A DNA stretch of 37,663 bases from a virus. Positions within the stretch are counted from its first letter, which is position 1. Each line of letters starts with the position of its first letter. The position numbers were made by a program, and so were the translations under genes. This document shows positions 1 to 34,414 of this stretch, one piece after another. Location of the stretch: the IMG/VR virus record IMGVR_UViG_3300047552_001113, positions 1 through 37,663 of that record, one strand, 5' to 3'. The notes below the pieces were generated by a model, which saw only the letters and a list, made by a program, of their open reading frames with translations, had not been told where the DNA came from and searched no databases.

Positions 1-129
1 GGAAAGGAAATTTGGCTGAATATGAGCATGAGAAAACAAGAATTCACAAATGGCGCACTCAATGAAATTCTGCAAGAACATTTCATGTATCTATTGCATA
101 GGTTTTTTAGGGTAAAAGATGAGTATTGA
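1..129 (+). CDS. Open frame at left edge, likely C-terminal half of the membrane-protein gene at the right edge
   Basis: Frame 1 is open from the first base for 42 codons and stops with TGA 11 bp inside the next gene. It has no convincing start of its own. If the two window ends are joined, it continues, in exact register, the membrane-protein frame that runs off the right edge, giving a protein of about 86 residues: one N-terminal membrane segment followed by a charged, helix-prone tail. A competing reading in frame 3 (stop at 63-65) would, after the same join, form a 24-residue peptide starting MAARKGN. I prefer the longer frame because it keeps the usual short overlap with the downstream gene. 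Function unknown. Confidence 0.45.
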   Translation, partial: GKEIWLNMSMRKQEFTNGALNEILQEHFMYLLHRFFRVKDEY

Positions 130-352
130 TTATCAGATGAACAAATACTCTAGAGAGAAGAGCAAATTCAATGGAGAGCCTCTTTTTTCTACAAATGAGT
201 ATTCTGTAAATCATCTTGCTAAAAGACTTGGTGTGCATCCTCAGCATGTTTATTATTTGCTACGAAGAGGTGTTTTAAAGGCTGATAAAAGGGGATCGGC
301 TTGGATTATATCGGACGAAGAAATTGAGCGTATAGCAAAAGAAAAGGGATGA
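119..352 (+). CDS. Small HTH DNA-binding protein, excisionase/MerR-like
   Basis: A 77-residue protein. Residues about 28-72 form a helix-turn-helix of the HTH_17/excisionase type: a helix with AKRLGVHPQHVYYLLRRG, then a short wing and the typical closing ISDEEIERI. Such proteins act as excisionases (directionality factors) or as small phage regulators. The ATG follows an AGGGT SD site by five bases and overlaps the upstream frame by 11 bp, suggesting translational coupling. A serine recombinase is also encoded here, so a role as its directionality factor is conceivable but not shown; a transcriptional regulator is equally possible. Confidence 0.75.
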   Translation: MSIDYQMNKYSREKSKFNGEPLFSTNEYSVNHLAKRLGVHPQHVYYLLRRGVLKADKRGSAWIISDEEIERIAKEKG

Positions 353-417
353 ACAGGCGCTTTCTATTTTTTCCCCTGTATAAATTCATAATATTGCGTC
401 GCGAATTTGTTCAAATT

Positions 418-466
418 TTAATTGAGGGTAAATGCCACATGTGGTATTGTGCACCTCCTCAATTAA
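418..466. promoter_or_regulatory. Nested inverted repeat before the DpnD-like/RHH gene
   Basis: Perfect 10-bp arms TTAATTGAGG and CCTCAATTAA enclose a second palindrome, AATGCCACA/TGTGGTATT (one mismatch, core CCACATGTGG). The right arm abuts the AAGGG SD of the gene starting 12 bases later, so an RNA hairpin could occlude it. Just inside the right arm lies CACCTCCT, the sequence of the 16S rRNA anti-SD. It could be a protein operator, a translational switch or a recombination site. Confidence 0.5.
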
Positions 467-478
467 GGGCGTAATTAT

Positions 479-808
479 ATGAAACATTATTTTGTCTATA
501 TTAGAGATATCCAAATTTACAAGTTTATGGTAGATGCGGAGAATGAAGAAGAAGCCAAAGAATTGGCTGTTGAACTGTTTGAAACAGAAGGTTACCTTTC
601 TAAAGCGTGGCACTCTGACACAGAGGATTACCAGGTTGTTAATGTAGAAGAATGTGTAGATATAGAATATTCTGCGGGTGAAGACTTTATTAAAATAAGG
701 GTGCCTTCTCAAATCAAAAAAGAATTTAAAATTTTCTGTGCAGAAAAAAATAAGAGCATGCAAGATATTTTAAACGCAACGATCAAAAATTTTATTAAGC
801 GTCCCTAG
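479..808 (+). CDS. DpnD/PcfM-like N-terminus joined to a ribbon-helix-helix C-terminus
   Basis: A 109-residue protein with two visible parts. Residues 1-60 (YFVYIRDIQIYKFMVDAENE, helix EEEAKELAVELF, then DYQVVNVEECVDIEY) resemble the small DpnD/PcfM alpha/beta fold. Residues about 68-107 look like a ribbon-helix-helix: strand DFIKIRVPS, helix IKKEFKIFCAEKN, then helix SMQDILNATIKNFIK. RHH proteins are dimeric DNA binders and usually repress their own or neighbouring promoters. The nested inverted repeat just upstream could be its operator. The start is supported by AAGGG nine bases upstream. The domain reading is by eye; the exact role is unknown. Confidence 0.6.
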   Translation: MKHYFVYIRDIQIYKFMVDAENEEEAKELAVELFETEGYLSKAWHSDTEDYQVVNVEECVDIEYSAGEDFIKIRVPSQIKKEFKIFCAEKNKSMQDILNATIKNFIKRP

Positions 809-842
809 ATCTAGAGAAATACAGAAAAGAATTGACTTTGGA

Positions 843-863
843 ACGCTACCACCCCGGTAGCGT
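843..863. terminator. Stem-loop ACGCTACC/GGTAGCGT, possible terminator
   Basis: A perfect 8-bp GC-containing stem with an ACCCC loop, placed after the RHH-type gene. No clean U-tract follows, so intrinsic termination is uncertain. Its GTAGCG core also occurs in the stem-loop between the minus-strand genes near 34.8 kb. A TTGACT box lies just upstream, but no good -10 sits at the right spacing. Confidence 0.4.
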
Positions 864-968
864 AACAACTTTACTTGAGGACGTTTCTTTAAAAGATTTA
901 ATCCCTTCTTAAAACTTTTCTTTCTTTTTATCTTCTGGTAATCTTAACTCAAATAATGTGAGTAATTT

Positions 969-1295
969 ATGCCATTCACAGATAGACATTTAGCACCTTC
1001 GGCCATCACACAAACTAAGCCTGTGCGCGTGACAGTAGAGGGAAGCAACCTCTCTAATGGCCAGTTTGTGCGCGCAACCAACTTCTTCTCACCCTTGCAA
1101 CCTCATTCAACGGGCATGCATCAGCTCAATAACAGGCTATTGATGGTTTGGAATACTACAGCGGACACTTTCGACCTGTTCGATGAGATGGGCTTACCTA
1201 TTGATGGCACAAATTATACCGCTTTTGTGGCTAATGACTACTCGCAATTTACGCTTACAGGGCCGGATTTAGATGTGCAAAACGTAAGTGATTAA
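969..1295 (+). CDS. Small FCCH-like beta protein, probably virion-associated
   Basis: A 108-residue protein in which residues about 12-100 follow the pattern of the small beta module found in phage structural proteins and annotated as 'ubiquitin-activating enzyme E1 FCCH-like': a strand with PVRVTVEG, a turn LSNGQFVRATNF, then HQLNNRLLMVWNTTADTFDL and a closing LPIDGTNYTAF. The same pattern recurs in the decoration-protein candidate and in the gp10-like tail protein of this genome. It directly precedes the large terminase. A minor head or tail component is most likely; the SD is weak. Family assignment is by pattern, not alignment. Confidence 0.55.
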   Translation: MPFTDRHLAPSAITQTKPVRVTVEGSNLSNGQFVRATNFFSPLQPHSTGMHQLNNRLLMVWNTTADTFDLFDEMGLPIDGTNYTAFVANDYSQFTLTGPDLDVQNVSD

Positions 1296-1399
1296 CTTTT
1301 TTATACTTAAACTCTAATTCTCTTTTGTGGAATGCGCCTGATTTGCTATAAAAAAGCCTGAAATTCAAATAATATTTATGCATTTTGGGCTTGTTTTAA

Positions 1400-2911
1400 A
1401 TGACGACTATATCAGAAGACCTTAAAGACCAACTGCCTTCGTTAGAGCTCTTATCAGATCGTAAATGGCGCCTTACTAATCTGTACTATATCAAAGACAA
1501 ATCAGGTCAAAGCGTGCCATTTAAGCCCAACTGGGCACAACTTCAGCTTATGAAGCCCCATTACCTCAACATCATCTTAAAAGCTCGCCAATTGGGAGTT
1601 ACAACGTTCCATGCACTCTTATTCTTGGATACCTGTTTGTTCAACGAAAACGTCCATGCGGCAATTATTGCGGACTCGAAGCAGACTGCGCGGGAGATCT
1701 TCGTCGATAAAGTTAAGTACGCCTACGATCATTTACCTGATTGCATTAGAGCGCTTTGCCCAGCCAACCGCGACAACGCAAATGAGCTTCGTTTTGCAAA
1801 TGGATCTGTTTTTCGGGTCGGAACCAGCTTGCGGGGGGGTACAATTCAACTGCTACACATCACCGAGTTTGCAAAAATATGTCAGGAGAATCCGCGCAAG
1901 GCCGCGGAGATCATGTCTGGTGCGATTAATACAGTCCATGTCGGGCAGTTTATATGTATTGAATCTACTGCTAGAGGCCGAGAAGGCTTCTTTTATGACA
2001 TGTGTAAAACGGCAATCGCGCTAAAAGACCAGGGTGCAGAGCTTGGTCAGCTTGATTGGAAGTTCTGGTTTTTTCCGTGGCAAGATCATCCAGACTACAA
2101 GATACAAGCCAAGAATATCGTCTTCCCAAAGGAGTTAGATGAGTATTTTGAGAAGATTGAGGGACAAGGTGTTAAATTAACACAAGAACAAAAGAACTGG
2201 TACGTAAAGAAGATGCAAACACAAGGCGAGTACATGAAGCGCGAGTATCCATCCACGCCCGATGAGGCATTTGAGTCGGCAAATGAGGGCCTCTACTTTG
2301 GCAAGCAGATAGCCCAAGCGCGTCAAGAGAAGAGAATTTGCTACCTTCCATACGACGATCATGCCAAAACCTACACCGCGTGGGATATTGGTTATAACGA
2401 TGAGACAGCGATTTGGGTATTCCAGCTCGTGGGCAAAGAGATACACCTCATTGACTACTACGAAAACTCGGGTGAAGGACTAGCCCACTATGTCAAATGG
2501 GTGCGCGAAAAACCCTATATCTATGAGAAGCACTATTTCCCATTCGATGCTGACTCAAAGGAAAAGGGAAGTGGCCGCAGCTACGTCGATCTCGCAAGAG
2601 AGATGGGGCTTAAGACTCAAGTCCTTCCGCGCGCAAAGAATGAGCTATTTGGCATTGAGAACCTAAGAGGCATGATCAACCGTATGTTCTTTGATGAGAA
2701 GAAGTGCGCACAAGGGATCAAAGCCATCGAAAACTTCCGCAAAGAATGGAATGATAAGCTTGGATGTTACAGGGAAAGGGCACTTCATGACTGGGCATCT
2801 CACGGCTCTAAAGCGCTTATCTATACGTCAGAGGCAGTTGGCCGCATGAGCAATGGAAGTGGTATGACTGCGGAGCAGTGGCGGCGTCTTCGTGATGAAT
2901 ACATAGGATAG
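1400..2911 (+). CDS. terL: Terminase large subunit (packaging ATPase and nuclease)
   Basis: A 503-residue protein that powers DNA translocation into the prohead and cuts the concatemer. The ATPase has a deviant Walker A at 61-69 (KARQLGVTT), an upstream Q-rich adenine motif around 47-49, and a Walker B ending HITE with catalytic Glu156. The C-terminal RNase H-like nuclease shows its three acidic positions: D329 in AWDIGYND, D383/D385 in FPFDADS, and D464 in ALHDWASHG. Length is typical for a Terminase_6-type subunit. It docks on the portal encoded next, and its partner small subunit is probably the gene near 36.0 kb, adjacent if the map is circular. The SD is weak. Identification is firm. Confidence 0.95.
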   Translation: MTTISEDLKDQLPSLELLSDRKWRLTNLYYIKDKSGQSVPFKPNWAQLQLMKPHYLNIILKARQLGVTTFHALLFLDTCLFNENVHAAIIADSKQTAREIFVDKVKYAYDHLPDCIRALCPANRDNANELRFANGSVFRVGTSLRGGTIQLLHITEFAKICQENPRKAAEIMSGAINTVHVGQFICIESTARGREGFFYDMCKTAIALKDQGAELGQLDWKFWFFPWQDHPDYKIQAKNIVFPKELDEYFEKIEGQGVKLTQEQKNWYVKKMQTQGEYMKREYPSTPDEAFESANEGLYFGKQIAQARQEKRICYLPYDDHAKTYTAWDIGYNDETAIWVFQLVGKEIHLIDYYENSGEGLAHYVKWVREKPYIYEKHYFPFDADSKEKGSGRSYVDLAREMGLKTQVLPRAKNELFGIENLRGMINRMFFDEKKCAQGIKAIENFRKEWNDKLGCYRERALHDWASHGSKALIYTSEAVGRMSNGSGMTAEQWRRLRDEYIG

Positions 2912-2915
2912 TAGA

Positions 2916-3140
2916 ATGGGTGAGTTTACTGATTTGATTTTTAGTCTGCTAGGTAAAGTTGGGCGCTGGTTTAATGTCAAAGGACAAAGGGTGTGCTTTA
3001 TTTTGTGGGCTATTTGCCTTCTTTACTGGATAGCTCGTAATTTTTCGATGGGGCTAATGGTTCAAACAGGTAGTTGCTTAATTTCATTCTTATTTCATTG
3101 TTATGGGTGGTGGAACTGGAAAATCAAAGGGATTGGTTAG
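2916..3140 (+). CDS. Small two-helix membrane protein between terminase and portal
   Basis: A 74-residue protein with two hydrophobic segments, about residues 26-41 (VCFILWAICLLYWIAR) and 45-66 (GLMVQTGSCLISFLFHCYGW), ending WNWKIKG. It starts four bases after the terminase stop with AGGAT as SD, so it is cotranscribed with the packaging genes. The closing 'YGWWNWK' recalls small PnuC-like or holin-like membrane proteins of phages. A holin role is possible because no other lysis gene is obvious, but the sequence gives no direct proof. Confidence 0.65.
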   Translation: MGEFTDLIFSLLGKVGRWFNVKGQRVCFILWAICLLYWIARNFSMGLMVQTGSCLISFLFHCYGWWNWKIKGIG

Positions 3141-3231
3141 TCATAAATCATTAAAATACATCAACTTACGTCATAATTTTAGAGACAAAAATATTTCTTT
3201 GGCTAAAATGTAAAGAAAATATTTGAGTTAT

Positions 3232-5283
3232 ATGGCGTATATCTCTGGCAATACGGAAGTTGTAAACAAGTTCAACCAGTTCTATTACGATGCTTGGCGA
3301 ACTTGGGGCGTTTACTATTCTGCGGCTTATAGAGACCTTCGCGCGTATGCTGGTGACAATTGGCTGACGCAAGAGAAGATGTACCTTGAGCAGCAAAAGC
3401 GTATGGTGCTGGAGTTAAATAAAATACGCCGCGTTATCAATCTTTATAGCGGCTATGAGCGCGAAAATAGAACTTCAACAGTTGTTTCTCCAATTGAAGG
3501 GGCAGACGAGGAAACAGCCGAGCAGCTCACCGATGTTATGCTCTACATCTACGACAAAGCCAATGCTCACTACACCTGTTCGGAAGCGTTCGACCACTCG
3601 CTAAAGACCGGCTTGTCTATCATCGGCATTTATATGGACTACAGTCGCGACAAGGTTAATGGTGACATTAAGTTTTACTGGAAACCATTTAATGCCTTGA
3701 TGATGGATCCTTATTTTACTAAACGGGATTTATCAGATTGCGATCAGGCGGCCACTCGCGATCTGCTTAGCAAATCGCAGGTCAAAGCTCTTTTGCCATT
3801 TATCGACCCATCAGTCATAGAGAATATCCCAACAGGTATTAGAGATAACAAATATCAATATCTTGGCATCTATAGGCAATACAATAGTGCCTACATAGCC
3901 AAGAACCTGCTCACGTACGACCAGTACTGGCGCCGCTACAATAAAGAGCAAAAGTACCTCATCGACACAAAAACAGGTATCAGTCAAGAGTATAACGGCT
4001 CGCGCGAGGAAGAAAAGCAGTTAAAATTGATTCTTGAACAAGCCCCACATCTTCAGCTTATTAATTCCTATAAGAGCACGGTCGAGTTAAATATCATAGT
4101 CGGCGGCGAACTTCTCTATCAAGGGCCAGATCCGACGGGCCTTGATACATTCCCATTCGTGCCCGTGATTTGCTACTTCGAGCCTCTGATTGATACTTAC
4201 GAGCTTAAGATTCAAGGTATTGTCCGCTCTATTCGCGATGCGCAACGACAATACAATAGGCGTCATTCACAGATCATCGACCTTATGGAATCAGTTATTA
4301 ACACAGGGTGGATTCACAAAAATGGCGCGGTTATTGATCCTTCTATGCTTTTTATGTCTGGCGCGGGCAGGAATGTGGTTGTCAATGAGGAATACGATGT
4401 CAATGCAGACATTCGCGAAATTAGCCCACCTCAGATTCCTCCTGGTTATCTTGCATATCAAGATATTATGGACAAAAACATTCTTGAAATTCCTGGAGGC
4501 AATGATGAGATTCTCGGTATTTCTTCAGTTGGTGATTCTCAAGTGTCTGGACGTCTTGCGGAAGTTAGGGCTTCCAATGGGCTAAAGGGTAATCGCGGAC
4601 TTTTCGACAACTTTGAACTAGCAAAAAAACTTCTTGGCGACCTAGTACTTCAGACCGTTCAAAAGCAGTATACGCCGGGAAAGGTGGCTCGTATTATCGG
4701 ACGTAACCCAACCGACCAGTTCTTTTCGCAACAGTTCGAAGAGTATGACTGCACAATTAAGCAATCCGTTCTTACTCAGACGCAAAGAGAGGCCTATTAC
4801 TATCAACTGCTCCAACTTCGCTCTCTTGGCGTGGCAATTCCAGACGACGAAATCATCTCCGCAGCTCCACTTCTTGGCAAATCCCGTATCGTCGAGCGCA
4901 TGCAGCAGATGCAGCAGCAGGCCGAAGAAGCTTCAATGCAGGCTCAAGAGGATGCGGCAATCGAAAGACAACTCAAGCTTTCACAAAAAGAAGAAAACTT
5001 GGCTCTTGCACAAGAAAGACGTGCGCGTGTGCTATCAGATATCGGCCTGGCAAAAGAAAGACTATCCGAAAGCGAGCAAAACTACGCCAAGGCAATGCTT
5101 GATAATGCAAGAACTGTAGCTGAGATTGAAGACCTGGATCGTAGGCGTATTATTGACGTCCTCAAATTGGCAGCCGACATGCATATGCAAGCACAAGAGA
5201 GAGCTAATGAACAGATAGAAGAAGATATGCAGAAGGCTAAAGAGTTAGCTGAACCAATACCTATAGGAGGAGAAAATGGTTAA
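3232..5283 (+). CDS. Portal protein, P22-like
   Basis: About 683 residues from ATG (686 if the in-frame TTG three codons upstream is used; neither has a strong SD). It forms the dodecameric channel at the head vertex, through which DNA is packed and ejected and to which the terminase docks. Recognised from position after the large terminase, length and the P22-portal-type body, e.g. FVPVICYFEPLIDTYELKIQ, SIRDAQRQYNRRHSQIIDL and GISSVGDSQVSGRLAEVRAS. Residues about 555-680 are a long Q/A/E-rich coiled coil (MQQMQQQAEEASMQAQED onward), matching the extended barrel of P22-type portals. Its 3' end contains the AGGAGG SD of the next gene, which it overlaps by 8 bp. Confidence 0.88.
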   Translation: MAYISGNTEVVNKFNQFYYDAWRTWGVYYSAAYRDLRAYAGDNWLTQEKMYLEQQKRMVLELNKIRRVINLYSGYERENRTSTVVSPIEGADEETAEQLTDVMLYIYDKANAHYTCSEAFDHSLKTGLSIIGIYMDYSRDKVNGDIKFYWKPFNALMMDPYFTKRDLSDCDQAATRDLLSKSQVKALLPFIDPSVIENIPTGIRDNKYQYLGIYRQYNSAYIAKNLLTYDQYWRRYNKEQKYLIDTKTGISQEYNGSREEEKQLKLILEQAPHLQLINSYKSTVELNIIVGGELLYQGPDPTGLDTFPFVPVICYFEPLIDTYELKIQGIVRSIRDAQRQYNRRHSQIIDLMESVINTGWIHKNGAVIDPSMLFMSGAGRNVVVNEEYDVNADIREISPPQIPPGYLAYQDIMDKNILEIPGGNDEILGISSVGDSQVSGRLAEVRASNGLKGNRGLFDNFELAKKLLGDLVLQTVQKQYTPGKVARIIGRNPTDQFFSQQFEEYDCTIKQSVLTQTQREAYYYQLLQLRSLGVAIPDDEIISAAPLLGKSRIVERMQQMQQQAEEASMQAQEDAAIERQLKLSQKEENLALAQERRARVLSDIGLAKERLSESEQNYAKAMLDNARTVAEIEDLDRRRIIDVLKLAADMHMQAQERANEQIEEDMQKAKELAEPIPIGGENG

Positions 5284-17881: not shown

Positions 17882-20365
17882 ATGGTTAAGTTTCCAAGTA
17901 AATTAGGTTATACAGGAGAGGCCGCGACAGAGACAAAGCCTGGGTTAGCAAGATTCGCGACAGATACAGAGGCGGTGGCGGGGACAAGAGATGATTTGAT
18001 TATGACGCCGCAGGATGTTGCAACATCTGTGGATGATTTAATGCCTGATGCGAGCACAACAGAGGCAGGTAAAGTTAGATTGGCCACTGTTGCTGAGACA
18101 TTAGCCGGAACCTCGCAGACGATAGCTACTACGCCGGCAGGTGTTGCAGCCGTTGCGATTGCGGGCGCTCCTGATGCGACAACAGGTAGTAAGGGTATTG
18201 GATTTTTGGCCACTAACGCCCAGGCTGTGGCGGGTGTTGTCAATACAAATACATTCGTTATTCCATCAAACCTCCCGTCTGTATTTGCTGCTCCGCCAGC
18301 TATTGGGGGCACAACTCCTAGCACAGCGGCTTTTACAACCTTAACAGCCACAGCCTCAGGCGCTGCTATTGCCTTAACATCTGATACGGCATCTAGTTTT
18401 GGCGTAACAGGCGCAGGAATAGATTTAACCCTGTCCAGTGCTGCTGGCCGAGTCGTATTAAATGCCGAAGAGGCTGCTGCCGATGCCGTGACTATCGTTT
18501 CGGCTGCGGGTGGTATTGATATGGACTCTGCCCTACTCGCAAGTATCACATCAAGCAGAAACAATGCCCAGGCTATTCTCGTTGAAGCTACTGCCGGAGG
18601 TATAGATATCTTAGCAAGTGGCGCGGCCGCCGGTGAGGACATCGACATTATAGCAACAGGCTCATCCGTTAACATCACATCCACAGAAAGCGCAGCCGAC
18701 TCTATTAAGTTGACAAGTACAGCCGGAGGGATTGACATTCTCGCCACGGGTGCTGCCGCAGGAGAAGATATTGACATCGTAGCCACTGGATCGTCCGTCA
18801 ATATCACAGCCACCGAAAACGCCGGGGATTCAATTGTTATTACCTCAACTACGGGCGGTATCCAGATTTTAGCCTCTGGAGCTGCTGCCGGAGAGGATAT
18901 TGTAGTAACGGCAACCGGATCATCTGTAGTCATTACCTCAACAGAGAGTGCCGCAGATTCTATAAAGCTTGAATCCACAGCGGGGGGTATTGACATTTTA
19001 GCCTCTGGCGCAGCTGCTGGAGAAGATATTGATATTGTTGCCACGGGATCTAGCGTTAACATTTCCGCTACCGAAAACGACGCGGGTGCTATTACCATTG
19101 GAACCAACGGAGGCACATCTGAAAGAATTACAGTAACTTGCGCGCAGGGTACAAACGCGGCAAGCATTGGTCTTACATCCACAGCCGGGGGTATTACATT
19201 AACCGGTGGTTTAGCCACAGCCGATGCGATTAATATTGTAGCCTCTAACGCGGCCGGAGGAATTGACGTCGATGCCGGTACAAGTGGTATCATAGCCGAT
19301 ACAACTGGAGCGATTAGCCTAGATTCAGCCGCAGCCTCTAATTTTACCGTCACAGGTGCTTTTGATTTGACGGTGAGTACTACAGCCGGAAGTTTAAATT
19401 TAAACGCTGGGGAAGCTGCTGCGGATGCGATTAATGTAGACAGTACAGGTGGATTTGACCTTGATGCTGCTCTTCAAATTAATATCGACTCAGCACAAGC
19501 CGCCGCCACAGCTGTACGAATCAACGCAAGCAACGCGGGTGGGGGTATCGATGTGGATGCCGGAACCGGGGGCATCGCAGTAGACACAACAGGAGCTATT
19601 TCTTTAGATTCCGCCGCCGCTTCCAACTTCACTGTTACAGGAGCTTTTGATCTCACGGTTAGCACGAGCGCGGGAAGCCTCAACTTGACTGCCGGAGAAG
19701 ATGCAGCTGATGCGATTGTTGTAAGCGCCGGAGCGGGGGGGATCGATATTTTGGCCACAGGAGCTGCCGGACAAGACATCGATATCGTCAACACAGGCGG
19801 ATCAGTCAATATCAGCGCAACAGAGAGTGCAGCCGACTCCATCACAATCATATCTACAGCCGGTGGAATAGACATTTCCGCTTCCGGAGCCGCTGCGGGT
19901 GAAGACATTGATATCACCGCAACAGGAAGCTCAATCAATATTACGGCCACCGAGAACGTCACAGATGCGATTGTCATTAATGCCTCAGGCGCCGCTTCTG
20001 CCCTGCAATTAGATGCGGGAACGGGCGGTTTAAGAATTGGAACGGGGGTAGTGATTCCGGTCACCGCGGTTAACAACGCAGCTTCTCCTTACACTGTCCT
20101 TGGAACAGATTATTTCCTCTCCGTCGATACAAGCGGGGGTGCAGTAACCGTAACTCTTCCTGCTGCGACTGCCTTAGCTGGAAGATCTTTCGTGATTAAA
20201 GATATGGGCGGTACGGCTGCGGTCAACAACATTACAATTAACGGTGGCGGAACTAACTTAGTCGGCGGCGGCGCGGCTGCTGCGACAAAAGTTCTGTCTG
20301 CGGCCTATTCGGGAGCAGTTGTTTATTCTAATGGAACCACTTGGGCTTATTACTACACAGCATAA
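17882..20365 (+). CDS. Large repetitive tail-fibre protein 1
   Basis: An 827-residue fibre. Residues 10-90 are classical phage-fibre repeats (KPGLARFATDTEAVAGTRDD, TTEAGKVRLATVAETLAGTS). The shaft (about 235-700) is built from near-identical beta modules: four tandem 43-residue copies around GGIDILASGAAAGEDIDI, two diverged copies later, and a separate duplicated block about 95 residues apart containing TGAISLDSAAASNFTVTG. The C-terminal 90 residues are a phage/virus tip-like beta domain (VTVTLPAATALAGRSFVIKD). The shaft suggests a trimeric beta-helix. Copies that agree in protein differ at most codons. The antisense strand is accidentally open over much of it. Confidence 0.85.
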   Translation: MVKFPSKLGYTGEAATETKPGLARFATDTEAVAGTRDDLIMTPQDVATSVDDLMPDASTTEAGKVRLATVAETLAGTSQTIATTPAGVAAVAIAGAPDATTGSKGIGFLATNAQAVAGVVNTNTFVIPSNLPSVFAAPPAIGGTTPSTAAFTTLTATASGAAIALTSDTASSFGVTGAGIDLTLSSAAGRVVLNAEEAAADAVTIVSAAGGIDMDSALLASITSSRNNAQAILVEATAGGIDILASGAAAGEDIDIIATGSSVNITSTESAADSIKLTSTAGGIDILATGAAAGEDIDIVATGSSVNITATENAGDSIVITSTTGGIQILASGAAAGEDIVVTATGSSVVITSTESAADSIKLESTAGGIDILASGAAAGEDIDIVATGSSVNISATENDAGAITIGTNGGTSERITVTCAQGTNAASIGLTSTAGGITLTGGLATADAINIVASNAAGGIDVDAGTSGIIADTTGAISLDSAAASNFTVTGAFDLTVSTTAGSLNLNAGEAAADAINVDSTGGFDLDAALQINIDSAQAAATAVRINASNAGGGIDVDAGTGGIAVDTTGAISLDSAAASNFTVTGAFDLTVSTSAGSLNLTAGEDAADAIVVSAGAGGIDILATGAAGQDIDIVNTGGSVNISATESAADSITIISTAGGIDISASGAAAGEDIDITATGSSINITATENVTDAIVINASGAASALQLDAGTGGLRIGTGVVIPVTAVNNAASPYTVLGTDYFLSVDTSGGAVTVTLPAATALAGRSFVIKDMGGTAAVNNITINGGGTNLVGGGAAAATKVLSAAYSGAVVYSNGTTWAYYYTA
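18596..19111 (+). repeat. Four tandem 129-bp coding repeats in fibre 1
   Basis: Exact 129-bp period (GG-I codons at 18596, 18725, 18854 and 18983) encoding 43-residue units GGI(D/Q)ILA(S/T)GAAAGED. Protein identity between units is high while synonymous positions are scrambled. Two further units lie at about 19736 and 19862 (126 bp apart, one alanine lost). Confidence 0.9.
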
Positions 20366-20648: not shown

Positions 20649-22436
20649 ATGGCATATAGATATAATCCTTTGCCTCCAAATTTTGACCGAGTGGACGGGG
20701 GGGGCGGCAGCGGAAATGTTGTCGGCCCCGGTTCCTCCACAGACAACGCCTTAGTTCGATGGGATGGTACAACTGGCGCTTTGGTTCAAGATAGCAATGC
20801 TATTTTATCCGATGGCGGCACGTTATCCTTGGCTGTTGCGCTCCCTATTACAAGTGGGGGCTCTGGCGCTACAACAGCCCCAGGAGCTAGAACGAACCTT
20901 GGCCTTGGTACGATAGCAACTCAGGATGCGAATTCGGTCTCGATTACAGGCGGCTCAATTACAGGTATTACTCCTCTAGCAGTTGCGGACGGGGGAACCG
21001 GCGTGTCTTCTTTTACTGCTAATGGCTTAATTTATGGAAATGGATCATCTGCGCTTCAAGTTTTAGGCGAAGCGACAAATGGACAGCTAGTAATCGGTCG
21101 CAGCGGGAATTCACCTGTTTTGGCAACACTGACCGAAGGAACCGGCATTGCTATCACAAACGGTTCGGGATCTATCACTATTGGCCTGACAGGTGCTGGA
21201 CTTGCCATAGATACTATTTTGACCGACGACGGCGCCCCAGCGGTTACCCCAGATGGTACAGGCCAGATCACTTTTGCTGGTGGAACAGGGATGAATGTCA
21301 CAGGTCAAAGCCCAGGAAATACGGTCACCGTGACTTTAGAGACCCCTGTTGTGGCCACAAACGGCGGAACGGGGATAAGCACTTATACTCAGGGAGACAT
21401 CATTTACTCTTCCGCAGCTAATACTCTAGCAAAATTAGCTAAAGACACAAATGCGACCAGATATATGTCTAATACGGGAACGGACAATAACCCGGCGTGG
21501 GCGCAGGTTGATTTAGCTAATGGCGTCACAGGAAACCTACCGGTAGCTAATCTTAATAGTGGCACTAGCGCCTCTGCAACAACATTCTGGCGAGGAGATG
21601 GCACTTGGGGTACTCCAGCAGGGGCTGGAGATGTAACAGGCCCAGGTTCTTCAACCGATAATGCACTTGTTCGTTTCGATTTAACCACCGGAAAGTTAAT
21701 TCAAGATGGTGTAATCACCGAGGATGACACAGGAAATCTTTCTATTAGCGCCTCTGTTTCTGGGAGTTCTTTATCGGCGACCGTTGCCAATACATCCAAC
21801 ACAGCATCTGCGACGGCTTTTTATCATGCTCAGGTGGCCGGGTCTACCGCCTCCGATGCTTATTATAGAGCTTCGATAAATGCAGGGCAATCTTGGACTT
21901 GGGGTTTAGATAATAGCGATAGCGATGCGTTTGTTATCTCCGCTTCTAGTACACCGGGAACTACAAACATCATGAGAGCCTCAACTGCGGGGGAGATTCG
22001 TTATCCTTTGCAGCCCGCATTTCTAGCCTATAACTCAGCGACAGATTCGAATGTTACGGGAGATGGAACAACAGTAAGCGTTGATTTTAATACTGAGGTA
22101 TTTGATCAGAATGGAGATTTTGCATCTGATACGTTTACAGCTCCAATTACGGGAAGATATTTTCTAACTAGCACTATTAGATTTCAAGAGGTTCCGGCCA
22201 GCAATTTTGGAAATATGGTGATAAGTACATCTAATGCTTCCTATCAAGTAATCATCTGCAATCCTAATAACGTAAAAGAAACTGCATCTGGACTCTCCAT
22301 TAACGGAAGCGCTTTTGCTGATATGGATGCTGCTGACACGGCAATTGTCCAAACAACTCTTAGCGGCAGTACTAAGACAGCGGACATCGTAGGGGGTAGT
22401 GGCGATACATTCTTTGGTGGTTATTTGGCTTGTTAA
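20649..22436 (+). CDS. Tail-fibre protein 2 with C1q-like tip
   Basis: A 595-residue fibre. The N-terminus ([18 protein letters not shown]) probably attaches to the virion. The shaft has G/S/T-rich repeats, including two [12 protein letters not shown](W/F)D modules and several GGTG(V/I)S turns. Residues about 365-450 form a domain shared with fibre 3 (TSNTAS..., [12 protein letters not shown]). The last 140 residues look like a C1q/TNF-like jelly roll ([49 protein letters not shown]), a typical trimeric receptor-binding head. It probably contacts the host surface. Confidence 0.85.
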
Positions 22437-27664: not shown

Positions 27665-28441
27665 TTACTTCTTCTTGTTTAGCCAACTGATGAATTTCTT
27701 CTCTGTAGCGGGAAAATCTTTAACAAAGTTCTCTACAGTCTGTTCCTTCGTCCATTTAAAATGATCTGAGACCGCTTGAATGTATTCTAACCAGTTTGCG
27801 CGCTCTTCTTTGTCATTGAACTTATCTAGAAAAAAGGCAACCGAATCTACATTCTGCTCAACAACTTCTACCTCTGATACAGACTCTACAACTGGAATAA
27901 ATTCTACGTCACCGCCACGAGGGATTTCGCCTTCTATGTATCCTACGCCAATCACATCTGAGAATAACTGACGGGCCACGCGAGAGACAGCACGGGCAAA
28001 CAGCATATCTTTAGGATTCTTAACCCATCCACCTCCGGATTTGATAAGGCCAGCTTGCCTTGCCTCCTCGATACTATAGCTGGCGGTAATGGTGTCGCCA
28101 TTGTCTGAGCGTTTCCCTATTACCACGCATTCTTTGTCATCGAGCTTTTTCACTTGCAAGCTATGGCCAGCTCTGCGAATAAGAGCGGTCATCATCCGAG
28201 CGGAGATTTCCACTTTTCCGCTGATGATGTTGAGTCCACCATTGAGCGCCTGCATCGGCGGTATTCCAAGCTCGCGAGCAGCAAGCATAATGACCACAAT
28301 ACCAGATTCATCTCCGATTCCTTTGTACATTTTACTATTAGCCGCCTGTTTCGCCATCGTGTGGTAAACCATCATCTCATGGTCGGATGGGACTAGTGCT
28401 TTTGCGGTCTCTTGTTTTACGATTGCTAGTTGCTGATCCAT
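27665..28441 (-). CDS. RecT-family single-strand annealing recombinase
   Basis: A 258-residue protein. The conserved core runs from about residue 22 to 175: MAKQAANSKMYKGIGDESGI, MLAARELGIPPMQALNGGLN, SARMMTALIRRAGHSLQVKK, the turn KSGGGWVKNPKDMLFARAVS and VARQLFSDVIGVGYIEGE. RecT-type proteins coat ssDNA and anneal it to complementary strands at replication forks or resected ends. The exonuclease encoded just upstream on the same strand supplies the ssDNA, a standard phage Red-like pair. AAGGT SD. The variable acidic C-terminus (about 185-258) may bind host factors. Confidence 0.85.
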   Translation of the reverse strand: MDQQLAIVKQETAKALVPSDHEMMVYHTMAKQAANSKMYKGIGDESGIVVIMLAARELGIPPMQALNGGLNIISGKVEISARMMTALIRRAGHSLQVKKLDDKECVVIGKRSDNGDTITASYSIEEARQAGLIKSGGGWVKNPKDMLFARAVSRVARQLFSDVIGVGYIEGEIPRGGDVEFIPVVESVSEVEVVEQNVDSVAFFLDKFNDKEERANWLEYIQAVSDHFKWTKEQTVENFVKDFPATEKKFISWLNKKK

Positions 28442-28455
28442 AATACCTTAATCAT

Positions 28456-28989
28456 TTATTTAAAGAAATATTTATACACATCTACGCATTTTTTGAAAAA
28501 GGGAATGTCGGGAGAATAGTCGTAGACTTTTGCGGCATGACCGTAGCGATTAAGTTTTACAAACTGAATGCCTTGGATATCATAACCTGCCTGCTTTGCT
28601 AGATAATAGTAGGCAGATCCTTGAACTTGCCATGTGCGACTTTGCTTGGATGAAGTTTTAAGATCGCATACTACAAGGCCAGCATCTGTTTTTAGGAGGA
28701 GGTCTATTTGCCCCGTGACCATTAATTCATCGCAAAAGAAGCGCTTTTCCATAAGCACGACTTCCTTGCCATCGCCCCACCACTTTTTAAATGAATCCAC
28801 ATAACCTTTTAAGCTATCTTCTACATCCCATTCACCAACGCCGCATATGATGGACTCGCAGATAGCATGCACCCGAGTTCCTCTGGTTGCTGCTCGCTCC
28901 AGAATTAGCTCGTTAACATTGTCTAAGCCACTAAATGGGTAAAGTATCTCAGTAACGCGCGTGTATTTCTCTGAATCTATATGCGACAT
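28456..28989 (-). CDS. PD-(D/E)XK exonuclease, RecB/Cas4-like
   Basis: A 177-residue nuclease from the ATG before SHIDSEKYTRVTEILYPFSG; a GTG 21 codons earlier is in frame but encodes unlikely sequence, and neither start has a clear SD. Motifs: GTRVHAICES with H41, VTGQIDLLLK with D96, VVCDLKTS with D109-x-K111, and QVQGSAYYYLAKQAG (QxxxY). These define RecB/Cas4-type exonucleases that resect duplex ends. It precedes recT with a 14-bp gap, so both form one leftward early operon expressed from the control region upstream. No FeS-cluster cysteine set as in Cas4 is seen. Confidence 0.85.
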   Translation of the reverse strand: MSHIDSEKYTRVTEILYPFSGLDNVNELILERAATRGTRVHAICESIICGVGEWDVEDSLKGYVDSFKKWWGDGKEVVLMEKRFFCDELMVTGQIDLLLKTDAGLVVCDLKTSSKQSRTWQVQGSAYYYLAKQAGYDIQGIQFVKLNRYGHAAKVYDYSPDIPFFKKCVDVYKYFFK

Positions 28990-29232
28990 ATTACGACTAT
29001 AGCGGCTATGGTTAATAGGATGAATGTGATGACAAACACTACCCCACGCCACCCAAAAACGTCAAAAATCTCCATAAAAACGTTTAGCATTTATGATCCC
29101 AATGGCAAAAAAATGTAAGTTTTTTTTTAAACAAATGATATAGCACAAATGATTTACATTCAATATGTTACGATGAAATGTTTTAGAAAAAAATGTAAAG
29201 ACTTTTTTATAATTCAAAATGGCTGAGGATGG

Positions 29233-30267: not shown

Positions 30268-31383
30268 ATGGCAATCGTACAATTTAAAGAAGAGATAGAA
30301 AATAAAAATGCCGAGCGGACAACTCGGCAAAAAGACTCAACAAAAGATGAGCCAATGTTAACAGATAATGGGAATTCATACAAAGGTGATTTTTCACCTA
30401 AGGCCGGTTTTATTCAAATTCAGCGCGCAGCCGAAGATTTACTAGAAGCCGATCCCGATGCTTACTTACTTATGTCGCAAATAATGTTTCGCGCGCTTCG
30501 TAAAAAGAACAAATATAACCGCCACGGACTTGAACCAAATCAAGCTTTAGTTGGTGATTTTGAGTCTTGTGGTTTGACACGACAGCGCTATCGATCTGCT
30601 CTTTTGCGTTTAAAAACCAACCATCTGATAACCACCAAAAAAACCAACAAAGGAACGATTGCAACTATCTTAGGAACAGAGTTTTGTGACATAAATCCAG
30701 AAAACAAAACCCAACAAAATAACCATCAAGCAACCATCAAGCAACCACTAAAGAATAATGAAATAAAGAAAGAATATATAAAGAATACTTCTAACGAAGT
30801 ATTCCCATCGAGCACTTCGGCCGAATCCGAAAAACGTAACATAACGTATAATATCAGAAACAAATCTAGTTCTCAGCCGCCTTCGGCGCTTCGAACAGCA
30901 ATTACAGAAATTTCTTTTTCATTCGATTCTAATTCTTTTGAAAACATTTCAGACAAAGATAAGCAAACTTGGAAAGAGCTTTATCCGGCCATTAATCTCG
31001 ACTTAGAAATTAAGCGGGCAAGCGAGTGGTGTCTATCTAATCAATCGAAAGCTAAATCCAAAAAAAAGTGGCGCCAATTCCTGAATAATTGGTTTAAACG
31101 CGCAAACGAAGAGGCGGTTAATCGCGCCGCTTATCAGAGTCGAAAAGGGGGCAGCCCATCTATCGAAGAAAGCAAAGATAGGGCAGAGGCGAACCGCAAA
31201 CGGGTAATGGCAAAGTTTCAGGATGGGCAATATTACAACTCGGCTAAATGCAATATAGCACCGCACAAGGTTTATTTTTGGCGCCAGGGTGTAGGAGAGA
31301 AGGAAGTTTATTTTAAGGACTCAAGCTTTGACGAGCAATTCACTAACATGCTGAGGTTGTATAATATAAATGTCACAATCTGA
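30268..31383 (+). CDS. Phage replication initiator / replisome organizer
   Basis: A 371-residue protein. Residues about 45-140 hold a winged helix (KAGFIQIQRAAEDLLEADPD, YLLMSQIMFRALRKKNKYNR, SCGLTRQRYRSALLRLKTNH, then a wing). Residues 145-225 are a disordered N/K/S/T-rich linker. Residues 229-280 form the helical C-terminal motif (WKELYPAINLDLEIKRASEW, WRQFLNNWFKRAN) typical of phage organizers that recruit the host helicase. This is the O/DnaD-like arrangement. AAGGAG SD. The window encodes no polymerase or helicase, so the phage must depend on the host replisome. The assignment is by architecture. Confidence 0.75.
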   Translation: MAIVQFKEEIENKNAERTTRQKDSTKDEPMLTDNGNSYKGDFSPKAGFIQIQRAAEDLLEADPDAYLLMSQIMFRALRKKNKYNRHGLEPNQALVGDFESCGLTRQRYRSALLRLKTNHLITTKKTNKGTIATILGTEFCDINPENKTQQNNHQATIKQPLKNNEIKKEYIKNTSNEVFPSSTSAESEKRNITYNIRNKSSSQPPSALRTAITEISFSFDSNSFENISDKDKQTWKELYPAINLDLEIKRASEWCLSNQSKAKSKKKWRQFLNNWFKRANEEAVNRAAYQSRKGGSPSIEESKDRAEANRKRVMAKFQDGQYYNSAKCNIAPHKVYFWRQGVGEKEVYFKDSSFDEQFTNMLRLYNINVTI

Positions 31384-33057: not shown

Positions 33058-33776
33058 TGTATATTATTATTCCTGATGTTCCTGTTCCTCAAAAGCGCCA
33101 TCGCACGGCCGATCGTGGAAGGCGCACAATCTACTACGACCCCAATGCGCGTGAAAAAGCTTGGACGCGTATGGTTTTGCAGAATTATTTGCGCGAGCAC
33201 TATCCGGACTTTGAAATGTTCAAGCATCCGCGCGTCTCTTTTATCTTTCATATGCCAATTCCATCTTATTTTAGCCGGAAATTGAAGCAATTGGCAAAAG
33301 TTGGGCTTCTTAAGCATGAGAAGAAACCTGATTATGATAACCTCTCCAAGTTCATTTTAGATTGCATGACTGGCGTTCTTTTTGAAGATGACTGTCTTGT
33401 TAGTTGCGGGCCGTCGATCAAGCTTTATCATGAGTTTCCTAAGACCATTATACACGTTGAAGAGACAAGCCAGACTCTTCAGCCGTGGGAGCTTGCACAG
33501 TACATTTATAATCCAGAACGCGATTATGCAGCACTCCATAAATGTTGCGATGGAGCCACTTCTTTCCCTCGCGATTTAAAAGACCATTTTCCTCGGCCAT
33601 CTTCTCTATGTCGCGATACGATAGACCCGCCTGTTGCCACTCATGCAGCATTGCTAGAGTTGCTTGCTCTTTGGGACAAGGTGCAATGTGAATACCATCG
33701 GGAAGGAGTCGGTAGCCATATGGAACCCGACCCACCCGCTGGCCAACCTTCTTCTTTTCCTGAAGGCGCGCCTTAG
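33057..33776 (+). CDS. RusA-type Holliday junction resolvase with an extended antisense-overlapping tail
   Basis: Residues 1-136 are a complete RusA domain: PVPQKRHR near the start, PRVSFIFHMPIPS, then the catalytic block KKPDYDNLSKFILDCMTG with D92 and D94 and VLFEDDCLVS with D111/D112. RusA dimers cut four-way junctions, here probably to clear recombination intermediates before packaging. RusA proteins are normally about 120-150 residues, but this frame runs to 239; its last 329 bp are antisense to the serine recombinase gene and read as low-quality sequence. Either the tail is translated read-through or a stop has been lost. Coupled to its upstream neighbour by TAATG. Confidence 0.85.
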   Translation: MYIIIPDVPVPQKRHRTADRGRRTIYYDPNAREKAWTRMVLQNYLREHYPDFEMFKHPRVSFIFHMPIPSYFSRKLKQLAKVGLLKHEKKPDYDNLSKFILDCMTGVLFEDDCLVSCGPSIKLYHEFPKTIIHVEETSQTLQPWELAQYIYNPERDYAALHKCCDGATSFPRDLKDHFPRPSSLCRDTIDPPVATHAALLELLALWDKVQCEYHREGVGSHMEPDPPAGQPSSFPEGAP

Positions 33777-34176
33777 TTCTTTGGCTGATGAGGTAGCGTT
33801 CATACTGTGCAAATGCGTCAACTAAAGTACGCATCATTTGAGCCATGCCAGCATCCATGTTTGAATCGTCTTGCGTAACTGTGACTAGCTTGCACTTCTT
33901 CTTCTTTATTTCCGCTTCAATGATGGCATTGTGTATGACGTCGCGGCCAAGTCTGTCACGCCTTGCAACTAGAAAGATGTCGCCTTTTGTGAGAGCGTTT
34001 ATAGCATTCATCATTTGCTCGCGCTCTTCCATCCTAAGCGTGCCACTAACTGCCTGATCACAGAATTCAAGGTGTTCTCCACCTCCGTTGCGTTTGATAT
34101 ACTCTAAGCAAGCCGCTCTTTGTGCTTGCACGTCTTGGTCGTCTGTTGAAACTCTCAAATAGATTATGTATTTCAT
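33448..34176 (-). CDS. Serine recombinase (resolvase/invertase type)
   Basis: A 242-residue protein. The N-terminal catalytic domain has YLRVSTDDQ with nucleophile Ser10 and Arg8, FLVARRDRLGRDV with catalytic arginines, and the long E-helix AFAQYERYLISQRTKARLQ. The C-terminal 90 residues are a short recombinase/HTH region (YGYRLLPDGI, AGLSYRDIEKMAEENGLLNR). It is too small for a large serine integrase, so resolvase, invertase or small integrase are the options. ATG chosen with GAGGA eight bases upstream. No att or inversion sites could be picked out by eye. Its 3' end overlaps the resolvase frame tail to tail. Confidence 0.85.
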   Translation of the reverse strand: MKYIIYLRVSTDDQDVQAQRAACLEYIKRNGGGEHLEFCDQAVSGTLRMEEREQMMNAINALTKGDIFLVARRDRLGRDVIHNAIIEAEIKKKKCKLVTVTQDDSNMDAGMAQMMRTLVDAFAQYERYLISQRTKARLQEKKKVGQRVGRVPYGYRLLPDGIHIAPCPKEQATLAMLHEWQQAGLSYRDIEKMAEENGLLNREGKKWLHRNIYGVLHNRVLDYKCTVQAPTAEESGLSLQRV

Positions 34177-34177
34177 A

Positions 34178-34414
34178 TTAATCATCCTCGACTGATTCTA
34201 ACCTTTCCCCCTCAGCAGCCACTACACGTACTTTTACGCCAAGCGACTTGAGGAACTTGACTTGATCGCGCGTGAAGCTATTGAGTTTTCTTCCCGCGCC
34301 TAAGATCTTGAGAGCATCCTTAGCTATTTTATTAACGGGATAGTATAAATACCTCCCGAATGAGAACTTGACTGAAAAGTGAAGTTCCGGCCCTTTTGTT
34401 TCTTTTTCTTGCAT
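34178..34414 (-). CDS. Small hypothetical protein upstream of the recombinase
   Basis: A 78-residue basic protein with AAGG five bases before ATG. Core FSVKFSFGRYLYYPVNKIAK followed by a helical LNSFTRDQVKFLKSLGVKVR. One base separates its stop from the recombinase ATG, so they are coupled. A recombinase accessory factor is possible; no family recognised. Confidence 0.55.
   Translation of the reverse strand: MQEKETKGPELHFSVKFSFGRYLYYPVNKIAKDALKILGAGRKLNSFTRDQVKFLKSLGVKVRVVAAEGERLESVEDD

Follow-up and report, generated by a model that had tools for sequence, protein, structure and literature searches.

Among the closest described systems is polyubiquitin, where concerted evolution has been weighed against purifying selection with birth-and-death evolution (Nei et al. 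2000, as discussed in PMC10457151). In its discussion of polyubiquitin, PMC10457151 itself favours concerted evolution and describes ubiquitin repeats of the same species as tending to resemble each other more in DNA than repeats of different species do. The phage fibre repeats described here resemble polyubiquitin, as portrayed there, in being tandem protein repeats held alike by purifying selection with synonymous differences accumulating between the copies. They differ from it in two respects: the protein repeats of polyubiquitin are essentially identical, whereas the fibre units are 62-84% identical, and the similarity within a fibre gene is hardly above the similarity between genomes. A second system was described by Persi et al. 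2016 (PMC5120217), who reported relaxed selection among repeats inside proteins and distinguished 'horizontal' from 'vertical' evolution. As in that study, we used dN/dS to compare the repeats inside a protein with their counterparts in relatives. Unlike there, the divergence within the fibre protein looks about as constrained as that between phages, an estimate which is limited by saturation. The T4-type long and short tail fibres (gp34 and gp12) match the N-terminal part of the fibre family when its alignment is compared with structures by profile (9x3r, E 3e-25; 5iv5, E 8e-10), but they have no counterpart of the 43-residue shaft repeats or of the cap. Our literature searches on codon-scrambled phage fibre repeats returned no paper.

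The window, by which we mean the whole analysed stretch of 37,663 nucleotides of viral DNA, carries a fibre gene with a T4-type-fibre-like N-terminal part, a repeat shaft (approximately aa 178-700) and a C-terminal cap (approximately aa 720-827). The N-terminal part matches PHROG 972, 910 and 35342, which places the gene among the tail fibres by similarity. No model of Pfam, NCBIfam or PHROG covers the 43-residue repeat at a meaningful score. Phage records queried with the fibre yielded nothing even at E 10, an outcome without information, as the query had probably been masked by the low-complexity filter. The gene contains six A-type units, four of them in tandem and two further on, and a block B in two copies (Table 1). 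An earlier note on this DNA had recognised the tandem four, which stand, and the two units at 19730-19984 are to be added. A 481-aa antisense ORF (17908-19353, minus strand) was considered as a second gene and rejected, as its stop-free run is matched by 12.6% of synonymous shuffles.

Table 1. Positions of the fibre gene, its repeats and the recombination genes in the window.
Feature	Position	Strand	Remarks
Fibre gene	17882..20365	+	827 aa
43-aa unit A1	18590..18718	+	
43-aa unit A2	18719..18847	+	
43-aa unit A3	18848..18976	+	Subtype with Q at column 6, common to other phages
43-aa unit A4	18977..19105	+	Protein identical to one unit of L025
Block B copy 1	19247..19438	+	64 residues; 28-residue identical run at 19298-19381
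Block B copy 2	19532..19723	+	64 residues; 28-residue identical run at 19583-19666
Unit A5	19730..19855	+	42 aa, one residue less
43-aa unit A6	19856..19984	+	
RecT-like annealing protein	27665..28441	-	PHROG 4171, E 1.5e-16; Pfam RecT under cut-off
Exonuclease adjoining the annealing protein	28456..29052	-	PHROG 298, E 2.4e-19

That the copies are alike in protein and divergent at synonymous sites, as the earlier note had stated, is borne out by the measurements. Pairs of units share only 60-71% of their nucleotides, with a pS of 0.60-0.94 (most pairs are saturated) and a dN of 0.16-0.32. Between the two copies of block B, 88% of the residues and 72% of the nucleotides agree, pS is 0.77 and dN is 0.11. 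The description of the repeats as near-identical in protein therefore holds for the block and is too strong for the units. The identical run in block B had been given as 27 residues with 17 different codons; we measured 28 residues with 18 different codons, one of which is a serine switch between TCN and AGY, so the earlier count was correct to within one. No exact direct repeat of the fibre ORF is longer than 14 nt, compared to a median of approximately 16 nt for the longest one in synonymous shuffles, and the exact k-mers common to copies within the gene lie inside the shuffle range.

Where two copies have the same residue, we compared the number of matching codons with a random draw from the codons of the gene itself. 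The units match in 152 of 467 such codons (166 expected, P 0.12), adjacent units in 38 of 119 (42 expected, P 0.24) and block B in 21 of 56 (19 expected, P 0.75). The fibre copies of the window are fully randomised in their codons and show no over-dispersion, with a mild deficit possible in this single gene. A random choice among synonymous codons would not give significantly more shared codons or exact repeats than the window has (P 0.12-0.75). Synonymous sites at or near saturation between the copies and a dN well below dS are what Nei's purifying-selection account of polyubiquitin expects, and the process matches the one of that account as PMC10457151 presents it. Concerted evolution would make the units more alike in DNA within the gene than between genomes; this was not found, and the units of the window are at the random codon level.

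The control which separates age from selection against recombination is the comparison of the same modules across genomes. In three protein-identical stretches of 30 residues, the window and other phages share a fraction of 0.333 of their codons, with 0.336 expected. Unit A4 and its counterpart in L025 agree in 43 of 43 residues and in 14 of 43 codons. Six genes contain the peptide DTTGAISLDSAAASNFTVTGA, in 11 copies altogether, and these are encoded by 11 distinct DNA sequences. In the family as a whole, pairs of 30-residue stretches with 24-25 matching residues share 0.451 of their codons within genes (0.394 expected) and 0.380 between genes (0.361 expected). The slightly higher sharing within genes is the reverse of avoidance. 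Moreover, the equal scrambling between phages counts against a role in preventing deletion, since repeat deletion cannot act between genomes.

The units themselves are also distributed across genomes. Across 146 units from phages, protein similarity averages 0.62 for pairs in one gene and 0.60 for pairs in different genes, and the nucleotide identity is 0.616 and 0.589, respectively. For 139 of the 146 units (95%), the closest relative in protein belongs to another genome. For 4.8% it belongs to the same genome, compared to approximately 1.7% expected by chance from the unit numbers, which indicates that a small amount of recent copying exists. Apart from this small excess in the relatives, copies are no more alike within a genome than between genomes. 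The subtype with Q at column 6, to which A3 belongs, is found in 13 genes, and columns 19 and 28 change along with column 6. D19 is present in 1 of 19 units of this subtype vs 114 of 115 others, and N28 in 1 of 19 vs 109 of 115, with R28 in most Q6 units. Such linkage suggests that these three columns hold residues which stack on adjacent strands. As subtypes are shared by different phages, the units probably diverged from one another before the phages did, but subtypes would be shared in a similar way if phages had exchanged modules long ago.

We consider it likely, with a probability of roughly 0.86, that the repeats are ancient, protein-constrained modules which were duplicated and diversified before the phages diverged and have since been under purifying selection. 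Under this reading, an ancient module that probably belongs to a beta-rich fibre shaft would have been duplicated and diversified first, and the phages would have diverged later. Purifying selection on the protein would hold the modules near their consensus while the synonymous sites randomise, the likely constraint being the fold of the shaft. Some modules may have passed between phages long ago, and such ancient exchange could imitate old duplication. As we found nothing closely related to the window, the window's own duplications are not directly datable. Age together with protein constraint would explain the codon-scrambled repeats without selection against recombination. Of the two causes put forward in the earlier note, it is thus old duplication under purifying selection that is retained, while selection against recombination failed every test made. 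Copying does occur to some extent, as shown by the exact repeats in relatives described below, and this counts against the ancient-module reading.

The substitution rates call for no special process, because at a dN/dS of approximately 0.1-0.2, as seen in the less diverged pairs, a dN of 0.15-0.25 already means a nearly saturated dS. In 7 of 8 related gene pairs, dS in the repeats is lower than or about equal to dS in the rest of the gene (for example 0.15 vs 0.27, 0.48 vs 0.87, 0.95 vs 1.54, 0.96 vs 1.23 and 1.82 vs 1.77). The single pair with a higher dS in the repeats, 2.69 vs 1.97, is near saturation. At the protein level, the shaft is 56-72% identical to that of 20 relatives, values which are somewhat flattered as the alignment of repeats can choose the best register, and the N-terminal part is 21-58% identical. 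The portal, where present, is 28-40% identical.

Selection against recombination, by which DNA-similar repeats would be lost through annealase-mediated deletion and codon-scrambled ones would survive, is very unlikely in our view. The window gene, at or slightly under the random level (see the units above), is in line with it. The unraised dS of the repeats and the equally strong scrambling between genomes speak against it, and so does a scan of viral contigs for relatives, which yielded 79 loci or, once near-duplicates were dropped and with the window counted in, 73 fibre genes. These genes exceed their synonymous null in exact repeats, with a median percentile of 0.945 (Wilcoxon P 2e-12), and 0 of the 73 lie below percentile 0.05. 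At k=20 there are 462 exact pairs vs approximately 20 expected, with overlapping k-mers counted, and the longest exact repeats of the family measure 86, 68, 57, 48 and 41 nt. The contigs come mostly from metagenomes and presumably rest on short reads. Exact repeats of great length would be concealed by such reads, and the excess is therefore probably conservative. Recent duplication or conversion occurs in the relatives, and the fibre gene of the window is without a trace of it.

Furthermore, the argument that the genome carries its own annealase, which would delete exact repeats, does not discriminate between the two causes. Of the 50 records of relatives that were searched, 30 carry a detected annealase (6 a RecT-like one, 5 a RecT that scores above the Pfam cut-off and 19 an ERF); its absence from a fragmentary record may reflect incompleteness alone. 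Carriers of RecT or ERF such as L006, L018, L019 and L030 hold exact repeats of 30-57 nt. The excess is present in every annealase group and the groups are alike (P 0.36-0.39), a comparison of carriers with non-carriers that is weak because the latter are represented by just four long records in which no annealase was detected. One observation on the side of selection against recombination is that in all seven genes from phages with the RecT-like annealase of the window the longest exact repeat is at most 28 nt, whereas some relatives that carry RecT or ERF or are untyped hold exact repeats of 30-86 nt. It is conceivable, if improbable, that phages with this annealase cap the length of exact repeats, in which case annealase-mediated deletion would trim the longest exact repeats only.

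Less likely still is convergence, in which similar repeats would have arisen independently from a simple, low-complexity beta pattern. The units are composed predominantly of Ala, Gly, Thr, Ser, Ile and Asp and have one mean level of similarity within and between genomes, which speaks for convergence, but the identical runs of 28-43 residues and the linked subtype residues (Q6, non-D19, mostly R28) are too specific for it. Least probable of all is recent duplication followed by very fast, targeted synonymous change through a mutator or retroelement-like process. Only the contrast between conserved protein and changed codons speaks for it. Against it, randomisation is equal between genomes, subtypes are shared by different phages, the repeats have a slower or equal dS and a targeted mutator would strike first and second codon positions too.

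The codon pattern has an ordinary cause in the ancient-module reading, and any novelty is to be sought in the unnamed repeat family and in how this is distributed. AlphaFold monomer models of the shaft have middling confidence and no assigned strands, and a fold search found no solved fold matching it. When the fibre was compared by Foldseek with predicted viral structures, matches of 38-45% sequence identity were obtained in an uncultured phage and in marseillevirus LCMAC103; because of the weak fold model, the sequence identity of these matches tells more than the fold. The C-terminal cap (approximately 20039-20362) is either 42-80% or 15-26% identical among phages with a similar shaft and, judging from these identities, looks as if it had been exchanged as a module.

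The 43-residue module is also found outside phages, in large proteins of L081-L089 and L092-L094 (genome_contigs), several of which start with a signal-peptide-like sequence. These genomes are assigned to candidate-phylum bacteria, namely Uhrbacteria, Nomurabacteria, Chisholmbacteria, Staskawiczbacteria and others. One unit of L088 (at aa 785 of the ORF 2-3991) agrees with phage units in 38 of 43 residues, and its codons match theirs at or close to the rate of a random draw. We considered and rejected the idea that the phage has a candidate-phylum host: the portal was found in 0 of 13 repeat-carrying genomes and gave two marginal matches among 380 genomes of one phylum, in a weak search that had no positive control. 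An unnamed module common to the fibres of diverse uncultured phages and to large, apparently secreted candidate-phylum proteins may merit a family model and a structure.

Besides the fibre gene, several other genes of the window were annotated. A P22-type portal (3223-5283), a serine recombinase (33448-34185, minus strand) and the pair of RecT-like protein and exonuclease (27665-29052, minus strand) suggest that the phage is temperate and has a P22-like head. At 30721-30747, a tandem repeat of 11 bases, AACCATCAAGC, is present in 2.5 copies inside a gene (30268-31383) with a weak DnaD-like helicase-loader match, and possibly represents origin iterons. In the second fibre gene (20649-22436), a 12-residue peptide is repeated at 20724-20759 and 21639-21674 with 9 of its 12 codons different; these repeats show the same pattern of kept protein and changed codons.
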